DNA of 64,000 nt. Origin: a virus. The stretch spans positions 1-64,000 of IMG/VR virus record IMGVR_UViG_3300048687_000070; one strand, 5' to 3'. Numbering within the stretch: the first letter of the stretch is position 1; each line of letters starts with the position of its first letter. The position numbers and the translations under genes were made by a program. Shown here piece by piece: positions 6,731 through 47,389 of this stretch. The notes beneath the pieces were generated by a model. That model made no database searches, was not told the DNA's origin, and saw only the letters and a list, made by a program, of their open reading frames with translations.

Positions 6731-7309
6731 ATGAGCGTTAACGTCCGCCTCGGTGATGAACAGGGCCTCGACCGGAGTCGTCGCTATCTGCGACCCGTCG
6801 CCCGCCTCCCCCTTGAAGGGCAGCCCGACGACACACACTGGGCCGTGTACCAGTGGCTGCCCCAGTTCGAGGCATGGGCCACCGGAACCGCGCTGTGCGG
6901 CTACTCGACTCAGCAGGGCTCGCTCCCAGAAGACACCACAGTGACGTGCGTGAACTGCGAGGAGTACCGGCCAACCTACGAGCGGATGTTGGACCCCACG
7001 CACGTCCCCGGCAGCGACGTCCCGATGACCGCCGAGGAGCTGCGCGACACCCTCGCCGAGATCATTCACGGACACAGCCGCAAGGACTCCAGCGACTGGG
7101 ACATAAACCAGGCTATGAACGCCGTGGAAGCCCACGTCGCCTACCGCATCGAGCACTTCCTCGCCGAACAGACGCAGGAACAGGTCCCACCGACTGAAGG
7201 TGATCAGCGGCCCTGCGGCTACACGAAGCGGCACCCCTCGCACACGTTCATGCGTCTGGAAGTCCCCTTCCAGTGCCCCGGTGAGCACGAGGCGGGGGGC
7301 GAGCGATGA
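6731..7309 (+). CDS. Putative zinc-binding protein
   Basis: 192 residues from ATG 6731, two bases after the previous stop. A Cys at about 53 (ALCGY) and CVNC at about 72-75 could form a zinc site; a second Cys pair, CGYTKRHPSH and FQCPGEH, closes the protein. The middle (100-150) is helical and charged. The stop overlaps the recombinase start, so it is co-translated with it and could be an accessory factor. Confidence 0.5.
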   Translation: MSVNVRLGDEQGLDRSRRYLRPVARLPLEGQPDDTHWAVYQWLPQFEAWATGTALCGYSTQQGSLPEDTTVTCVNCEEYRPTYERMLDPTHVPGSDVPMTAEELRDTLAEIIHGHSRKDSSDWDINQAMNAVEAHVAYRIEHFLAEQTQEQVPPTEGDQRPCGYTKRHPSHTFMRLEVPFQCPGEHEAGGER

Positions 7310-8325
7310 GCGGCGGCATCATCCCCCGCCAGCCAGACGCCGCCCCCGCCGTCCGTGACGCTGCGACGCTCGCCGTCCTCGCCGCGATGGAGCAGGCAGC
7401 CGAACAGCACCTCGACGCCATCCGCCCCAACAACACGAAACGCGGCTACGCCAACGACTGGAACCTCTGGACCGAGTTCCACGACTGGCTCGCCCAACAG
7501 ACCGGCCACCGGCTAGCGTTGACCGACGTCACGAAGGGCACGCTCGTCGGCTTCGTCGTCTGGCTCGACACCATCAAGCTCGCCGCGCCCACGTCGATCG
7601 ACCGGCGGATCACCGGGGTCACCGTCACCCTTCGGCGGGAGCACGGCATCGAGATCCCGAAGGAAGTCACCGTCGCCGCACGGCAAGCGCTGAAGCCGCT
7701 GAAGGCTGACGAGGAACGCCTCGCACGCGGCCGAGGAGCAGCCAAAGCTGCAACCCCTGACCAGCTCAGGCAGATGGCCGCCGCGGTACCGGACGGGCTC
7801 ACCGGCCTGCGCGACCGCGCCCTCTGGCTCATGGCCTTCTTCATCGCAGGGCGTTCCGCCGAAGTCGCCGCCCTCAAAGCCGAAGGCATCACCCTCCACA
7901 GCCAGGGCCTCAAAGTCCGAGTTCCCGGCGTCAAGGGAAAGCCTGCACGTGAAGTCGTCGTCGCCTACGACAGCAACCCTGACACCTGCCCCGTCCGGTC
8001 CTGGCTCACCTGGAAGGCAGCCAGCGGCATCACCACCGGAGCAGCCTTCCGCGCCATCGACGTCTGGGGTCACCTCGGCGACGGCCACCTCAGCGCCGAA
8101 GCCGTCCGCGAGATCATCGCCCGCAACGCCGAACGCGCAGGCGTCACCGTCCGCCTAACCGGCCACAGCATGCGCGCCGGATTCATCACCGCCTCACGCA
8201 TCGCAGGCAAGCGCGAAGAAAAGATCCGCGAACAGTCCGGCCACGCAGAAGGTAGCCCCATCTTCTGGCGCTACATCCGCGAAGCCGACAAGTGGGTCGA
8301 CGCGGCCAGCGAGGGCATCCTCTGA
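7306..8325 (+). CDS. Tyrosine recombinase (first of two)
   Basis: 339 residues. An N-terminal SAM-like core-binding domain (about 25-130) precedes the catalytic domain with Arg183 (FIAGRSAEV), His287 and Arg290 (LTGHSMRAGF), His313 (SGHAEG) and nucleophile Tyr323 (FWRYIRE). All five residues of the family are present, so it should be active. It performs strand exchange for integration, excision or dimer resolution. No excisionase-like gene or clear att repeat adjoins it. Its ATGA overlap with the 6731 gene and distance from the other integrase suggest a separate acquisition. Confidence 0.85.
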   Translation: MSGGIIPRQPDAAPAVRDAATLAVLAAMEQAAEQHLDAIRPNNTKRGYANDWNLWTEFHDWLAQQTGHRLALTDVTKGTLVGFVVWLDTIKLAAPTSIDRRITGVTVTLRREHGIEIPKEVTVAARQALKPLKADEERLARGRGAAKAATPDQLRQMAAAVPDGLTGLRDRALWLMAFFIAGRSAEVAALKAEGITLHSQGLKVRVPGVKGKPAREVVVAYDSNPDTCPVRSWLTWKAASGITTGAAFRAIDVWGHLGDGHLSAEAVREIIARNAERAGVTVRLTGHSMRAGFITASRIAGKREEKIREQSGHAEGSPIFWRYIREADKWVDAASEGIL

Positions 8326-14999: not shown

Positions 15000-16397
15000 T
15001 CACTCCTCGCCATCAACCGAAAGATCATTTTCGCTGGGGAGGATCTGGGGAGATCCAAGTTCAAGCGGATCATCAGGAGCCGCAGGCGACTCCACGGCCC
15101 CCGCCGACATGAAGCGACCAATCGCCTCACGCCCACGGCTGCCAGACTTCGGCATGAAGTGCACGTAAGTCCTCAGGGTAAACCCGGGATCCGAGTGCCC
15201 CAGCCAGTCGGCCAACTTCCCGATGTCCTCACCCTCCGAGAGCACCACACTCGCGAACGTGTGCCGCAACACGTGAAAGCCGTAATGCCGGGGCATGCTC
15301 CACGCCACCTTGTCCCACCCCCGCCGGCCGCCCTTCGGCTCCACGGGAGTCACCACCGGAGGGTCAATGAGGCCGGCCTTCACCAGAGCAGGCTTCCATG
15401 TGCGGTTGTTGAAGCTGTCCCTGTTGACCGCCCCACCCCGCTTGGTGTTCGAGTACCGCGATGTCACCAGCAACCTGACGGTCACCTTCGGCCGGTCCTC
15501 CCAGGCCAGGTTCGGACGGTCCGGATCCACCCACGGCAGCGTCACCTCCTGCGTCGGGAAAAGGTTCTGGTACTCCTTGACCGCCGCCGCCAGCTCCGGC
15601 GGGCACGGCGCCACACGCTCCTTGTTGCCCTTCGGGGGACCGAAGCCGAACTGCCCATTGGCCTTGATCACTTGCCGCACCACGTGGATGTCCTCGCCGT
15701 CGATGTCGTCCGGCGAGAAGCCGAACGCCTCCCCTTGCCGCAGGCCGGCGCCGAGCCCGAGCAGAAGCAGCACGGCGTACCGCTCCGGAAGGGCGTCGCG
15801 GACCGCGGCCACGGTCTCCTGAGGCCAGGCGATGGCCTTGGACTTCGGGATCCTGGGGGGCTTGAGGTCCGGATCGCGAAACGGGTTCGCGGGGATCCTC
15901 TTGGCCTTATGGGCGGCCTGCAGGATGGATGAGAAGTGGGCCCACGTGACAACCAGTGTGCCGACGTCGACACTCCGGTTCACCTTCGCCTGCCATGCGC
16001 GGATCTCGTCGAAGCCGATCCGGTTCAGGGGGAGGCTGCCAACGTGCGGCACGATGTGCCTGAACACCCGCGACCGAACGTTGAACTTGGAGCTTGGCGG
16101 GTAGCGGGTGGTGGGCCACCAGTAGTCATTGATGTAGTCGGCCAGGGCCATGGTGCCGTCGCGCGGGTCGTACCAGTCGCCGCGCCCACTGTCCGTCTGG
16201 GCGTTGGCCAGCCAGTCCTTCGCCGCCCCCAGCTGCTTGTCGGGGAACGACCGGGAACGCACACCGGGAATGCCGGTGACCTTGTACCGCATGCCCTGGC
16301 CGTGGCGTTTGGTGGGAACTCGGGTCGGCTTCTTCTTCGGGTCGTCCGGATCGGGCGGGCCCTGCTTGTACCACCGGTCCTCGATGTAGCCGGGCAT
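15000..16397 (-). CDS. int: Phage tyrosine integrase
   Basis: 465 residues, the full length of an actinophage tyrosine integrase. An N-terminal arm-binding segment (about 35-95) and a core-binding SAM-like domain (about 100-175) precede the catalytic domain with Arg220 (GAGLRQGE), His375 and Arg378 (FHVLRHTFAS), His401 (WLGHSDPG) and nucleophile Tyr411 (LRTYVHF). It would integrate the phage at attB and, with an excisionase, reverse the reaction. It is the second gene of a leftward unit with 16420-16863, transcribed toward the candidate attP. Confidence 0.93.
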   Translation of the reverse strand: MPGYIEDRWYKQGPPDPDDPKKKPTRVPTKRHGQGMRYKVTGIPGVRSRSFPDKQLGAAKDWLANAQTDSGRGDWYDPRDGTMALADYINDYWWPTTRYPPSSKFNVRSRVFRHIVPHVGSLPLNRIGFDEIRAWQAKVNRSVDVGTLVVTWAHFSSILQAAHKAKRIPANPFRDPDLKPPRIPKSKAIAWPQETVAAVRDALPERYAVLLLLGLGAGLRQGEAFGFSPDDIDGEDIHVVRQVIKANGQFGFGPPKGNKERVAPCPPELAAAVKEYQNLFPTQEVTLPWVDPDRPNLAWEDRPKVTVRLLVTSRYSNTKRGGAVNRDSFNNRTWKPALVKAGLIDPPVVTPVEPKGGRRGWDKVAWSMPRHYGFHVLRHTFASVVLSEGEDIGKLADWLGHSDPGFTLRTYVHFMPKSGSRGREAIGRFMSAGAVESPAAPDDPLELGSPQILPSENDLSVDGEE

Positions 16398-18365: not shown

Positions 18366-19322
18366 GTGTCTCCGATGATCGCAGATCAGCCGAACGAGTT
18401 GATCCTCACCGAGTCCCGCACCATGCGGGCCCAGACCGCCGGCCGCGTCGACGTCCTCGACAAGGTCAAGGCGCTGGCACTGCTGCCCGACGGCATGCAC
18501 GCCACCACCGAAGGCATCGCGGCCTACTACGAGGTTGGCCAGGACGCCATCGAGAGCATCGTCCGACGGCACCGCGAAGAGCTGACCGAGAACGGCATGG
18601 AGACACTCCGCGGCGAGGCTCTGCGCGTCTTCAATGAGACTGTCAGCCTGACAGTCTCATCCCGGCGGAGCTCCCTGCGCGTCTTCTCCCGCCGAGCGAT
18701 CCTGAACGTCGGCCAGCTTCTGACCGACTCGGACGTCGCCCGCCAGGTCCGCACGTATCTGCTCGACGCCGAGGCCGAGACGGCTGACCAGTTCATGGTG
18801 CCGACGACGTTCGCCGGCGCGCTGGAGCTTGCCGCGCGACAGGCCCGCGAGTTGGAGGACGCCCGAGCCGAAAACTCGGAGCTGGTCGCGACGAACGCCC
18901 GCCTGTCGCCCAAGGCTCGCGTCGCGGACGACTACGAGGCCAACCCCGGGATCACTCCGACGGTGTTCCACAAGACGCACTTCCCCGAAGTCGGGGAGCG
19001 GGACTTCTTCGACCACCTGTACCGCAAGGACTACCTGATCGACCAGCGGAACACCCGCTGGGACGAGCGCAACAAGGAGTGGAAGGACGGCCCGGAGCAC
19101 GCACATCCGACTGCCAAGGGCAAGCGCTACTTCTACCTGGCGCCGAAGCTCGACCGGAACCGGGTGCGCCGCCAGCAGACCCTCGTGATTCCGGGCGAGG
19201 CGGAGCTGGACCTGGTCGCGGCGCTGGAGCGGGATGGGCTGCCGTCACGGAACCGGCCGGCTCTTCCGGGTGCTCAGGTCGTTCGCATGCCGCGGCAGCG
19301 GCGGAGTGGCGGTGCGGCATGA
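18366..19322 (+). CDS. Antirepressor-like DNA-binding protein
   Basis: 318 residues from GTG. The N-terminal 130 residues contain a helical DNA-binding module (LPDGMHATTEGIAAYYEVGQDAIESIVRRH...SSRRSSLRVFSRRAILNVGQLL), followed by a coiled coil (about 145-185). The C-terminus (VADDYEANPGITPTVFHKTHF...FYLAPK) resembles a KilAC-type domain. Such two-part proteins commonly act as phage antirepressors or early regulators. Family call is by architecture; the exact N-terminal family is uncertain. Confidence 0.6.
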   Translation: MSPMIADQPNELILTESRTMRAQTAGRVDVLDKVKALALLPDGMHATTEGIAAYYEVGQDAIESIVRRHREELTENGMETLRGEALRVFNETVSLTVSSRRSSLRVFSRRAILNVGQLLTDSDVARQVRTYLLDAEAETADQFMVPTTFAGALELAARQARELEDARAENSELVATNARLSPKARVADDYEANPGITPTVFHKTHFPEVGERDFFDHLYRKDYLIDQRNTRWDERNKEWKDGPEHAHPTAKGKRYFYLAPKLDRNRVRRQQTLVIPGEAELDLVAALERDGLPSRNRPALPGAQVVRMPRQRRSGGAA

Positions 19323-28974: not shown

Positions 28975-30000
28975 ATGCCCTGGGTCCGTTTGGACGATCG
29001 CTTCCCCTCGCACCGCAAGGTGGCGCTGCTGTCCGATCGCGCCTTCAGGCTGTACATCTCGGGCCTCTGCTGGTGCTCGGAGAACCTCACCGAAGGCAAG
29101 ATCCTCGACCGTGAACTCGCCGTCGTGTCCCGAGTCCGAGGCCTCAAGGCCGCCGCGAAAGAGCTCGAAGAAGCCCACCTGTGGGATCGGGTTAGCGGCG
29201 GCTGGCAGATCCACGACTACCTCGAATACAACCCCGAGCGCGCCAAGATCCAGGCCGATCGTCAGGCCAATGCCGCCCGGCAGCAGTCATTCCGCGACCG
29301 GAAGAAAGCGGAGCGCGCAGCCAAGAAGGTCGCCGAAGAAGCAGCCCGTAACGCCATGCGTAACGGCGTTACGGACCCTGCCGAGAACGGCGAAAACGAT
29401 ACGACGGCGACAGGAACGCGACACGACGACGACACGACGACGCGAGAAAGCCACGCGCAAAATCAGCGATCGTCGCAGGTCAGCGAGATTCGTAACGCCG
29501 TTAATAACGGCACCCCCGTCCCACTCCCCGTAGTTCCTCCTACGGAGGAACTACAACAACAGAAAGCTAGCTACGAAGAGCCCGCCCGCATCGGCGATCG
29601 CCCCCGCATCCCCGATGCCTCGCGCCCCCTCGTCGACAAGATCACCGCCCAAGGCATGGTCGTCGGCTGGGACCTGCAGCCCAACGAGTGGTTCCTCATC
29701 GACGCCCTCATCCGTCGCTGCGGCGTGGACGCCCTCGTCGTCTCCGCGGTCGGCAGCTGGCAGGGCGCCCGCAGACAGCCCCGTTCCGCCCGCTACTTCA
29801 TCCCGGCATGGCGAGACGTGCCCGACGCGATCACCCCAGAAGCGCCCCACGAACACTCCCTGCCCATCGCGGTCGGACAGGTCGTTCCGATCAACGGCCA
29901 GCAGCGCCCCGCCACTTCAGACCTCCGCACCCAACAGGCGATCGAGACCGGTCGCCGCCTGCAAGCCCTCGCCGACGCCAAGAACCAGGAGAACCGATGA
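28975..30000 (+). CDS. Replication initiator-like winged-helix protein
   Basis: 341 residues. The first 95 residues form a winged helix (MPWVRLDDRFPSHRKVALLSDRAFRLYISGLCWCSENLTEGKI...LEEAHLWDRVSGGWQIHDY), like lambda-O/DnaD-type phage initiators. A Thr/Asp/Arg-rich linker (about 110-205) is encoded by DNA full of repeats, and a C-terminal helical domain (about 205-320) could contact a helicase loader. The ATG follows AGAGAGAAG. The origin-like repeats inside the gene support an initiator role. Confidence 0.65.
   Translation: MPWVRLDDRFPSHRKVALLSDRAFRLYISGLCWCSENLTEGKILDRELAVVSRVRGLKAAAKELEEAHLWDRVSGGWQIHDYLEYNPERAKIQADRQANAARQQSFRDRKKAERAAKKVAEEAARNAMRNGVTDPAENGENDTTATGTRHDDDTTTRESHAQNQRSSQVSEIRNAVNNGTPVPLPVVPPTEELQQQKASYEEPARIGDRPRIPDASRPLVDKITAQGMVVGWDLQPNEWFLIDALIRRCGVDALVVSAVGSWQGARRQPRSARYFIPAWRDVPDAITPEAPHEHSLPIAVGQVVPINGQQRPATSDLRTQQAIETGRRLQALADAKNQENR
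29347..29554. other. Candidate replication origin inside the replication gene
   Basis: Within the linker-coding part of 28975-30000: CGTAACGCC (29347-29355), palindrome CGTAACG-G-CGTTACG (29359-29373), CGTAACGCCGTTA plus AATAACGG (29491-29510), and a perfect inverted repeat with arms GTAGTTCCTCC (29530-29540) and GGAGGAACTAC (29544-29554). The segment is more A/T- and ACGA-rich than its surroundings. The layout parallels the lambda origin, which lies inside gene O. Confidence 0.6.
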
Positions 30001-30683
30001 TCAGCTACGAAGAGGCCGGACAGCTCCTAGGTCTCGCCGCCGCCCGAGACCAGCGCACCGTCGGAGACGCCGACGTCCTCGCCTGGCACGCAGACCTCAA
30101 CACGGCGGGCGTCTCCTACGCCGACGCCAGCGCCGCCCTCACCCGCTTCTACGCCGTCGACATGGCCGGCCTCGAACCCGAGAAGCGCCGCCGCGTCACC
30201 ACCCCCGACGTCATCGGCATCGCCCGCAAGATCCGCAACGAGCGCCTCGCCAACTTCACCTACGAACCGCCACCCGGTGACTCCGACCCGGACTATGTCC
30301 GGCGCCTCCGCGGCCAGATCGAAGCCACCGCCAGCGGGCAGGTACCGCCACCGCGGGAGCGCCCCGCCCTGGAGGGCGAGCCCAGCGCGCAGATGCGAGC
30401 CCTCGTTGCCGGGATCGGGCGCCCCGTCGCCGACACCGACGAGGAAGCCGCCGCGGAGGCCGAGCGCGACACCGTCCGCCGCTCCGGACCGCTCGGCCGG
30501 GAGTGCCCCAAGTGCGCGGCTGCCATCGGCCGGCCGTGTCGCACACCCCGCGGCAAGGAGCGTGCACCGCATCCGGCCCGCAAGGGCGAGACAGCGAACC
30601 CCGAGGAAGAGCGCGCCGAGATGGACCGGCGCCGCGCCGCCTCCGCCGCCTCCCTGCAACGCCGCCAAGAGGAGATCGCCTGA
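29997..30683 (+). CDS. Replication-accessory protein with zinc motif
   Basis: 228 residues, ATGA overlap with the initiator-like gene. The N-terminal 95 residues are helical (ADVLAWHADLNTAGVSYADASAALTRFY...VTTPDVIGIARKIRNERLANF), typical of proteins paired with actinophage initiators and possibly a helicase-loader analogue. About 168-192 is a zinc mini-domain, CPKCAAAIGRPCRTPRGKERAPHPAR. The rest is charged and flexible. Confidence 0.55.
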   Translation: MISYEEAGQLLGLAAARDQRTVGDADVLAWHADLNTAGVSYADASAALTRFYAVDMAGLEPEKRRRVTTPDVIGIARKIRNERLANFTYEPPPGDSDPDYVRRLRGQIEATASGQVPPPRERPALEGEPSAQMRALVAGIGRPVADTDEEAAAEAERDTVRRSGPLGRECPKCAAAIGRPCRTPRGKERAPHPARKGETANPEEERAEMDRRRAASAASLQRRQEEIA

Positions 30684-30976: not shown

Positions 30977-31290
30977 GCGACTTCGAGCCGGAGATCGACG
31001 ACATCCGGGCGATGCGCCGCGAGAACGGCGGCGCCGACCTGAAGGCGTTCCTCCGCCAGCAGATCGCGAACGGCCGCACCCGCCGTGAACAGCCCGCCGC
31101 AGGGCCGGTGTTGAAGCCGCCCGGCCACCGCCCCGGCGCCTGGCCGCCCGGTTGTAGCCCGCCCGGCCCACCGCCGGAACGCCAGATACCCGACCACGTG
31201 TGGCGGGCCGCAGCCCGCCACACCAGCAACGAGACCAACCGACCCGACGAGCCGTGCGACTGCGGCAACTGCCCTGAGGAGACCCGATGA
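30973..31290 (+). CDS. Hypothetical early protein
   Basis: 105 residues from GTG in overlap. A charged helix first, a Pro-rich centre (GHRPGAWPPGCSPPGPPPE), then CDCGNC at the C-terminus as a possible metal half-site. Confidence 0.5.
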   Translation: MSDFEPEIDDIRAMRRENGGADLKAFLRQQIANGRTRREQPAAGPVLKPPGHRPGAWPPGCSPPGPPPERQIPDHVWRAAARHTSNETNRPDEPCDCGNCPEETR

Positions 31291-38766: not shown

Positions 38767-38777
38767 CACAACGACAC

Positions 38778-38806
38778 GGCCCCCACCTCGACACGAGGTG
38801 GGGGCC
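38778..38806 (-). terminator. Perfect 13-bp hairpin
   Basis: GGCCCCCACCTCG and CGAGGTGGGGGCC around ACA. It lies after the stop of the leftward gene 38842-39138. Confidence 0.8.
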
Positions 38807-38841
38807 GCGGTCGTGCGTGCGGGGTCAGGCGGCAACGGGCC

Positions 38842-45247: not shown

Positions 45248-47389
45248 ATGAGCGCCCACCACACCGCGCCGGCCGACCCGAAGCCCGCCCTGAAACTCGT
45301 TCCCTCGACCGACACGGCCGTGCAGGTGTCGACTCGCCCGGAGCGGCGCCGCCTGCGCGCGGACCGACTGCGGCGCATCGTCGTCGCCACCCGCAACAAC
45401 CCGGGGTACCGGCTCGCCGTCCGGCACGGCGCCTACACCCTCGGCGGGACCCGCATCCTGACCCGTCGCGCCTGGGACGCACGGACCGCGGCCCGGTACG
45501 AGCGGATGATGCGCATCGCCGAAGCGTCCGGGAACGAGGAGGCCACACGGGTGTGGGAGCAGCGGGCCCACGCCTACCGGTTCGCCCGGCGCCGCGGACG
45601 CATGGAACTCCTGCAACTGATCCTCAACGCGCCCAAGGCGGTAGCCATGGGCGCGGGCGCAACCGCTGGCGTTCTCCTGCTGCTCGGGATGATGCTGGCC
45701 GCTGCCAGGGAAGACATCAGTGACGTCCTCGTCCCGCTCAACGCCGTGATTCAGCTGGTCAGCTGGGTTGCGTTCATCGCGGGCGTCGTCTGGCGGCCGT
45801 TGCTGGTGTCGCTGCCGTTCCTCGCTCTGGCCGGGGCGTGGGCGGTCGGACGCCACCAGAAGTCCGCACCGGTATGGGCACTGCCCGTCGACCCCGGCGA
45901 GCAGGGCATCGTCCCGGACGAGAACGCCATCATGCGGGCGCTGGGCAAGCTGAGCATCGCGGAGCTCAATGCGGCCATCAAGGAGGGCTGGCAGCCGCGT
46001 TGGGTGCAGGGCACCGTCCGCTCCGGCAACGGCTATCACGCCCAGCTGCAGCTTCCTCTTGGCGCCCCCGTCGAGATGATCATCAAGAAGAAGAATGTTC
46101 TCGCGCACAACCTGCTCCGCAAGCCCGTCGAAGTGTGGCCCACCGAGCCGCCCCGCATGCCTGGCGTCCTCGACCTGTGGGTCGCCGACCAGGGCTCCCT
46201 GTCCGGGAAGATCCCGAGTTGGCCGCTGCTGCACGAGGGCACGACCGACTACTTCGAGGGCGTTCCCCTCGGCGTGTCCCAGCGCGGTGATCCGATCATC
46301 GGGAAACTGATGGCCGCGAACTACATGGTCGGCGGGATCATGGGATCCGGTAAATCGTCGCTGGTCATCTCGCTGCTTCTGGGCGCCGCCCTCGATCCGA
46401 TCGTCGACATCGAGGCCTACGTCATGGCCTACAACGTCGACTACGACCCGCTCAAGCCCCGCATGAGCGTCCTGGTCAAGGGCGACGACGACGAGCAGCT
46501 GAAGACCGCCCTCGACCGGCTGCGCAGCCTGACCAACGAGGTCACCGAACGCGGCAAGCTGCTGGAGGAGCTCGGCGGCGAGACCACCAAGCTGACGCGG
46601 GAGCTTTCGCTGAGGGACCAGCGGATGCGGCCCAAGGTCATCGTTTTCGACGAGTGCCACGAGCTGTTCATGCACAAGGGCTACGGCAAAGAGGCCGCTG
46701 AACTGGCCATTCGCGTCATGAAGAAGGCCCGCAAGGTCGGTATCACCCTCATCTGGGTCACCGTGTCGCCGACCGCCGACAGCATCCCGCGCGACGTCAC
46801 CCGCAACACGAGTCACCGTGTCGCGTTCGCCGTCGGCGACCACGTCGCCAACGACGGACTGCTCGGCTCCGGCCGCCACAAGGCCGGCATCACCGCCACC
46901 ACACTCATCCCCGGCGAGGACGTCGGCACCGCCGTCACCGTCGGCTTCACCAGCAAGCCGTTCGAGGTGGTGCGCGCCCACTACGTGGCCCGCGACCCGG
47001 AAAAGAACATCGACCAGGTCACGCCCGTCGTCGAGCGCTCCTTGACGGCGTACAAGCGCGGCGACGTGTGGGAGGTGCCCGCACCCGAGAGGGTCGACCA
47101 CCTCGTCGACATCGCGAAAGTCCTCGGCCACGAACCCAAGCTGCTCACCCAGGACGTCCTGCACGAACTCCACAACCTGAACCCGGACGTCTACGGCGAG
47201 TGGACGTTCCGGGACCTGCGCAGCGTCCTCGACACGGCCGGCCACGGCGAGTACAAGACCGGCGGGCGCCAGCACGTCAGCCTCGACCGCATCCTCGACG
47301 CCATCGCCGCCCGCGACGAATACGCCTCCGAGGACGCCGTAGAGATCGGCTACAGCGAGGGAGGCGATGAGGGAGGAAGCGATACGTGA
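45248..47389 (+). CDS. TraB/FtsK-like DNA translocase
   Basis: 713 residues. Membrane helices at about 131-153 and 165-200 anchor a cytosolic FtsK/SpoIIIE-type motor with Walker A GIMGSGKS (363-370) and Walker B KVIVFDECH (463-471), followed by the arginine-finger region and a C-terminal winged-helix-like part (about 630-700). This is the architecture of Streptomyces TraB/TraSA proteins, which move double-stranded DNA between cells through a hexameric pore, recognising short clt repeats. Its location after an SpdB-like gene supports a conjugative rather than a cell-division role. Confidence 0.85.
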   Translation: MSAHHTAPADPKPALKLVPSTDTAVQVSTRPERRRLRADRLRRIVVATRNNPGYRLAVRHGAYTLGGTRILTRRAWDARTAARYERMMRIAEASGNEEATRVWEQRAHAYRFARRRGRMELLQLILNAPKAVAMGAGATAGVLLLLGMMLAAAREDISDVLVPLNAVIQLVSWVAFIAGVVWRPLLVSLPFLALAGAWAVGRHQKSAPVWALPVDPGEQGIVPDENAIMRALGKLSIAELNAAIKEGWQPRWVQGTVRSGNGYHAQLQLPLGAPVEMIIKKKNVLAHNLLRKPVEVWPTEPPRMPGVLDLWVADQGSLSGKIPSWPLLHEGTTDYFEGVPLGVSQRGDPIIGKLMAANYMVGGIMGSGKSSLVISLLLGAALDPIVDIEAYVMAYNVDYDPLKPRMSVLVKGDDDEQLKTALDRLRSLTNEVTERGKLLEELGGETTKLTRELSLRDQRMRPKVIVFDECHELFMHKGYGKEAAELAIRVMKKARKVGITLIWVTVSPTADSIPRDVTRNTSHRVAFAVGDHVANDGLLGSGRHKAGITATTLIPGEDVGTAVTVGFTSKPFEVVRAHYVARDPEKNIDQVTPVVERSLTAYKRGDVWEVPAPERVDHLVDIAKVLGHEPKLLTQDVLHELHNLNPDVYGEWTFRDLRSVLDTAGHGEYKTGGRQHVSLDRILDAIAARDEYASEDAVEIGYSEGGDEGGSDT

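Follow-up and report, generated by a model that had tools for sequence, protein, structure and literature searches.

Several phages have been described in which the replication origin is, or has been proposed to be, inside the initiator gene. In lambda, the iterons are found in the middle of the initiator gene, O, together with an AT-rich region (PMC7466680, PMC6022878), and in SPP1 the initiator gp38 binds direct repeats of oriL within gene 38, with the helicase loader encoded next to it (PMC6316719). For 80alpha, an origin inside the initiator gene (ORF20) has been proposed (PMC5499656). For mycobacterial prophages that carry a separate group of RepA proteins, the authors saw no repeats and guessed that the origin was either within repA or upstream of it (PMC7157519). 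For the RepA-like initiators of actinophages, the open-access literature searched gave no mapped origin.

The gene considered here is part of the IMG/VR record IMGVR_UViG_3300048687_000070, a viral record of 88,184 bp, of which positions 1 to 64,000 were analyzed (64,000 nt, referred to as the window). From the sequence comparisons presented here, it is very probable that this gene carries, in the stretch encoding its flexible linker, a lambda/SPP1-like origin of a temperate Streptomyces phage. As in lambda, the predicted origin is in the middle of an initiator gene, the product of which would have an N-terminal DNA-binding domain and a C-terminal partner-binding domain with a linker between them; the iterons would be beside a candidate AT-rich region, and a helicase-loader-like gene is next (PMC6022878, PMC7466680). 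Unlike the four 18-bp iterons of lambda, the words found here are about 9 bp long, are spaced by 12 bp and form two clusters 125 bp apart. Compared to lambda, a C-rich repeat tract, a second class of repeats in the spacer and a covarying hairpin are present in addition, and the tract and the hairpin are also outside the description of SPP1 in the papers cited. Similarly to SPP1 G38P and 80alpha ORF20, the locus has a predicted winged-helix replisome organizer, direct repeats within the gene and a putative loader next to it (PMC6316719, PMC5499656); in contrast to these, its initiator has no Pfam or NCBIfam match to their families, the repeats are different and no helicase gene was found in the record. 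Both the protein family and the gene order with a helicase loader are shared with the initiators of phrog_2447 and phrog_3926 (Blett gp42 and SoJo gp39). While the origin-in-initiator kind is already known, this family, the hairpin and the C-rich tract appear to be new to the literature.

The initiator and the product of the next gene

The initiator gene (28975-30000, + strand) encodes a protein of 341 aa of the RepA-like or replisome-organizer type, as indicated by its phrog matches and by its homologues, which carry the annotation RepA-like replication initiator. In a profile search, the gene matched phrog_30000 (7.8e-35) and phrog_2447, "replication initiation protein" (5.5e-28), the latter over residues 1-213, which represent the N-terminal domain and the linker. 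In an AlphaFold model built from 23 relatives, residues 7-87 (28993-29235, + strand) form a winged-helix domain with a pLDDT of about 90, the putative reader of the iterons. This domain is followed by a long helix (residues 87-129), a disordered stretch (residues 131-207, with pLDDT <50 at 131-180 and 183-207) and a C-terminal helical domain (residues 214-288; 29614-29838, + strand), which comparison of relatives indicates to be swappable. The phrog match and the modeled winged helix agree with the preliminary description, in which the product was called a winged-helix initiator-like protein. According to the model and the fold matches, a DNA-binding-type N-domain, a flexible linker and a C-domain are arranged as in the initiators of initiator-embedded origins.

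A fold search with VIA gave winged-helix matches alone (Z ≤8.8), and proteins with the name "replisome organizer" were among the viral fold matches. ORC/Cdc6 was also among the winged-helix matches in the same range (Z ≤8.8) and was not taken as kinship, and the AAA+ lid-like matches of the C-terminal domain alone (Z ≤6.1) were inside the chance range. Foldseek of the initiator against the PDB gave nothing significant and a sequence search of solved structures gave no relevant match. For the lambda O family, there was no Pfam match above the cut-off and no NCBIfam match, and for Rep_3 and RepA of P1 and F (iteron-plasmid Rep), there was no Pfam or NCBIfam match. Judged by similarity, the initiator belongs with the RepA-like actinophage initiators and is not a sequence member of the lambda O or iteron-plasmid Rep families.

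The next gene (29997-30683, + strand), which overlaps the initiator gene at an ATGA, is helicase-loader-like and has a zinc-finger-like motif. Its product matches PF24623 (1e-7) and can be aligned with gp40 ("helicase loader") of the Streptomyces phage SoJo at 29% identity, including shared invariant C/H residues. In SoJo, the gene for a "RepA-like replication initiator" adjoins the "helicase loader" gene, and in Microbacterium phage Blett the annotated initiator is followed by a helicase loader and then by a DnaB-like helicase. By homology at this level of identity and by synteny with annotated loaders, a helicase loader is predicted to be encoded beside the initiator. A search of the 88-kb record, which may be a fragment, gave no member of the DnaB, DnaB_C and IstB/DnaC-like families; the absence of a DnaB-like helicase from this possibly incomplete record is consistent with host-dependent replication. 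GC skew, proposed earlier as a check on the origin, has no turn at the initiator gene in the window and is uninformative for a mosaic prophage. Elsewhere in the record, two different integrase genes (7306-8325, + strand, and 15000-16397, - strand) suggest a hybrid or nested element, and an FtsK/SpoIIIE-like gene (45248-47389, + strand) is positioned between the early genes and the structural genes, an arrangement known from conjugative elements of actinomycetes.

Repeats in the DNA encoding the linker

The word CGTAACG is found four times in the initiator gene, at 29347-29353 (+), 29359-29365 (+), 29367-29373 (-) and 29491-29497 (+). Extended to 9 bp, these words form cluster I (29347-29373, + strand; copies at 29347-29355 (+), 29359-29367 (+) and 29365-29373 (-)), which is kept in a clade of 33 members, and cluster II (29491-29511, + strand), in which the copy at 29491-29499 is followed at a spacing of 12 bp by a degenerate fifth iteron, AATAACGGC, at 29503-29511. 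This fifth iteron was overlooked in the preliminary description, and many relatives have AGTAACGG in its place. The repeated words and the two palindromes that had been reported, CGTAACG-G-CGTTACG (29359-29373) and TAACG-C-CGTTA (29493-29503, in cluster II), were all recovered, and the clustering is beyond chance. In the window, the CGTAACG 7-mer is mildly over-represented, with 9 copies versus 4.4 expected, which is unremarkable as 4 of 100 shuffles were as high; the four copies of CGTAACGSC in the 88,184-bp record are all inside 29347-29499, and four CGTAACG words in the gene were reached by 1 of 2000 synonymous-codon shuffles. The repeats occupy codons 125-194, where the long helix ends and the disordered stretch is encoded. 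The claim that the repeats are confined to the disordered linker is nearly correct, the exception being iteron one and half of the next (codons 125-129), which encode the end of helix 87-129.

Direct copies are spaced by 12 bp and the inverted pair by 7 bp. The distance from cluster I to cluster II is 125 bp in 26 of 28 genes and 137 bp in the other 2, and the sequence of the spacer (29374-29490, + strand) has diverged despite this fixed length; the spacer is wholly absent in four relatives (L011 and L013-L015). A second repeat, CGACACGA, is found in the spacer at 29419-29426 and 29430-29437, and represents a repeat class that was absent from the earlier account; 28 relatives have 74 copies versus 5.5 expected.

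DNA repeats could be a by-product of selection at the protein level for a repetitive, Asn/Gly/Pro-rich flexible linker, as the 12-bp spacing is a multiple of the codon and the linker is of low complexity and disordered. However, synonymous shuffles preserve the protein yet lose the repeats. In the linker DNA of 20 homologues, mostly 40-67% identical, GTAACG was found 94 times, versus 4.7 expected and a maximum of 16 in protein-keeping codon-usage shuffles. This word is spelled by CGT, AGT or GGT followed by AAC; Arg, Ser and Gly thus interchange freely before Asn, provided that the codon is NGT, and the DNA is constant. The codon AGT is used for none of the 209 Ser residues outside the linker in these homologues and 18 times in the linker, making GTAACG. 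Repeated 7-mers in the linker were above synonymous shuffles (p≤0.05) in 60 of 80 non-redundant relatives, the other 20 not being significant singly. For the winged-helix and C-terminal regions, the corresponding figures were 11 of 80 and 5 of 59, respectively. Significant linker repeats were also found in the Streptomyces phages SV1, Eklok, SoJo and ToastyFinz, which have an unrelated N-domain and a related C-domain; gp15 of phage VWB had no significant linker repeats. Moreover, in short initiators that consist of the winged helix only (Propionibacterium phages E6 and Anatole, Arthrobacter phage TripleJ and Glutamicibacter phage BIM BV-113), the repeats overlap the stop codon or come after it, out of the coding frame, which rules out a purely protein-level reason and marks the site as DNA. 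The hairpin and the C-rich tract, too, occur in all three frames. As a full explanation, protein-level selection is thus refuted by the synonymous shuffles, the frame variation and the non-coding equivalents, and we regard it as extremely improbable. By these measures, selection acts on the linker at the level of DNA, and repeats that are conserved as DNA within the initiator gene are a feature of initiator-embedded phage origins.

In a survey of 106 distinct loci sharing the winged-helix domain, different repeat words were found at the same place, including GACGCGTC (12-bp spacing), GTAAC, GTGAC and GCAAA types. The 33-member winged-helix clade of the initiator is entirely of the GTAAC type (support 100/94); over the tree as a whole, there are 7-9 changes of iteron type. 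This tracking of the winged-helix clade by iteron type is consistent with reading of the iterons by the winged helix; such co-inheritance could also result from adjacency (physical linkage) alone. C-terminal domains cross iteron types and are frequently closer to each other than expected from the iterons, as in the pairs L043/L015 (78%), L099/L017 (69%), L040/L004 (61%), L098/L090 (60%) and L026/L005 (59%). One exception is L090, which has GTAAC iterons and a winged helix (gene from position 4) that groups with the GACGCGTC type. Arg89, shared by L090 and the GTAAC clade, is a possible specificity switch; in a search for residues that determine the iteron type, R89 was the single position where L090 agrees with its iterons, but other relatives break this rule and the residue is no more than a lead.

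Co-evolution with the winged helix would also be expected if the repeats were an operator, at which the initiator binds its own coding region and represses or blocks transcription of the replication operon, with the origin being elsewhere; self-binding sites within a gene can act as roadblocks. However, the sites are in the middle of the gene rather than at a promoter, and past the stop codon in the phages with short initiators, and the C-rich tract, the hairpin and the helicase-loader gene alongside fit an origin better. An operator in place of an origin is therefore improbable, and the two roles can coexist. The direct and inverted repeats would also be typical of a parS-like partition site, but no ParA/ParB gene was seen alongside in the limited set of neighbours scanned; the terminase gene (54145) is 24 kb away from the repeats, which speaks against a packaging signal, and tracking of the initiator's winged helix by the repeats further argues against both of these functions, either of which would be most surprising here.

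The hairpin, the C-rich tract and the AT-rich patch

The perfect 11-bp hairpin (29530-29554, + strand), with arms GTAGTTCCTCC (29530-29540) and GGAGGAACTAC (29544-29554) and the loop TAC, is present as initially described, and an arm of at least 11 bp in the gene was reached by 6 of 2000 synonymous-codon shuffles. Its stem covaries among relatives (24 doubly changed cells, 99.1% paired; 0 of 500 shuffles were as high), and its reading frame differs between relatives, with all three frames being used. A perfect hairpin of 8-14 bp was found in all 23 related genes with a C-terminal domain of type T1, whatever their iterons, and in 0 of 18 T2 and 0 of 3 T3 genes. In the more distant SV1-like genes, the C-terminal domain is related and a separate hairpin of this type is lacking. 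In hairpin-less genes of another C-terminal type (L016, L017, L075-L078, L084 and others), a conserved TCTATGGCTGATGTAG, which encodes M/VADV, is found after the iterons. Further long perfect hairpins in the window, at 38777-38807, 18634-18660 and 31198-31223 (arms of 14, 12 and 11 bp, respectively), are possibly terminators.

The hairpin could, alternatively, be an RNA element of the operon messenger, that is, an attenuator or a translation control, separate from the origin. It includes CCTCC/GGAGG, covariation alone cannot separate RNA from DNA, and, because it follows the C-terminal type, the hairpin is separable from the iterons. On the other hand, there is no U tract and no start codon past the GGAGG, an Rfam search of the region gave no match, and the hairpin is placed just outside the iterons in every case. 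In addition, G-U pairs were found in 1 of 108 stem cells, and this scarcity suggests a DNA palindrome rather than RNA. Taking both sides into consideration, a role in RNA is a rather doubtful explanation, if one to be kept in mind.

A C-rich tract at 29512-29531 (+ strand), which was missed in the preliminary description, is a weak copy of the CCCG[T/A] repeats of the relatives. In 42 of 89 relatives, as compared to an expectation of 2.1, there were chains of at least three CCCG[T/A] words spaced by 5-6 bp; these chains used all three frames, and neither the winged-helix nor the C-terminal regions had a clear excess of them. In phages E6 and Anatole, (CCCGTA)n is found in DNA that is non-coding. 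C-richness in itself was not above the codon-shuffle expectation, which was exceeded only by the CCCG[T/A] chains with this spacing. The AT-richest 36 bp of the gene (29546-29581, + strand; 56% AT versus 35%) represent a candidate unwinding element; this patch is modest and its position shifts among relatives.

A predicted and possibly modular origin

The locus is read as an origin because of the DNA-level selection, the spacing of the repeats, the non-coding repeats, the tracking of the winged-helix clade by iteron type, the covariation of the hairpin, the identity of the gene, the synteny with the loader and an order like that in lambda and SPP1. Evidence counted against this reading includes the adjacency of iterons and winged helix, the 7-9 changes of iteron type, L090, VWB gp15, the 20 of 80 relatives without significant repeats, the flat GC skew and the modest, shifting AT-rich patch. 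Overall, the earlier proposal of a cis-acting initiator/origin unit is supported at the level of sequence by the DNA-level conservation, the fixed spacing, the constant place of the repeats by the winged-helix region and their non-coding equivalents.

In the mechanism that we propose, based on what is known of the family and on lambda and SPP1, the N-terminal winged helix would bind the iterons, with dimers probably occupying the inverted pairs, and the iteron-bound initiator would wrap the origin, with the strain opening the DNA rightward, around the hairpin and the AT-rich patch. Host DnaB would then be recruited to the exposed strand by the C-terminal domain together with the helicase-loader-like product, and replication would run in theta mode. 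Once single-stranded, the hairpin may serve as a loading or priming signal, which is the least certain step.

More tentatively, and with the odds somewhat against it, the origin could be modular, with iterons matched to the winged helix and the hairpin to one type of helicase-recruiting C-domain, joined by the CCCG[T/A] tract as a new opening or strand-capture element. The question raised is by what means a GC-rich phage origin is opened, and at which site the helicase is loaded. The locus and its relatives represent a natural experiment in initiator-origin co-evolution, which includes several swapped chimaeras and L090 as the one exception, and could also supply small replicons as candidates for use in Streptomyces vectors. 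Across a large group of actinophages, origins would be predictable from sequence alone, whether coding or not, and, if the modular reading is true, recombination at this seam would let these phages alter the specificity of the origin and the recruitment of the helicase separately.
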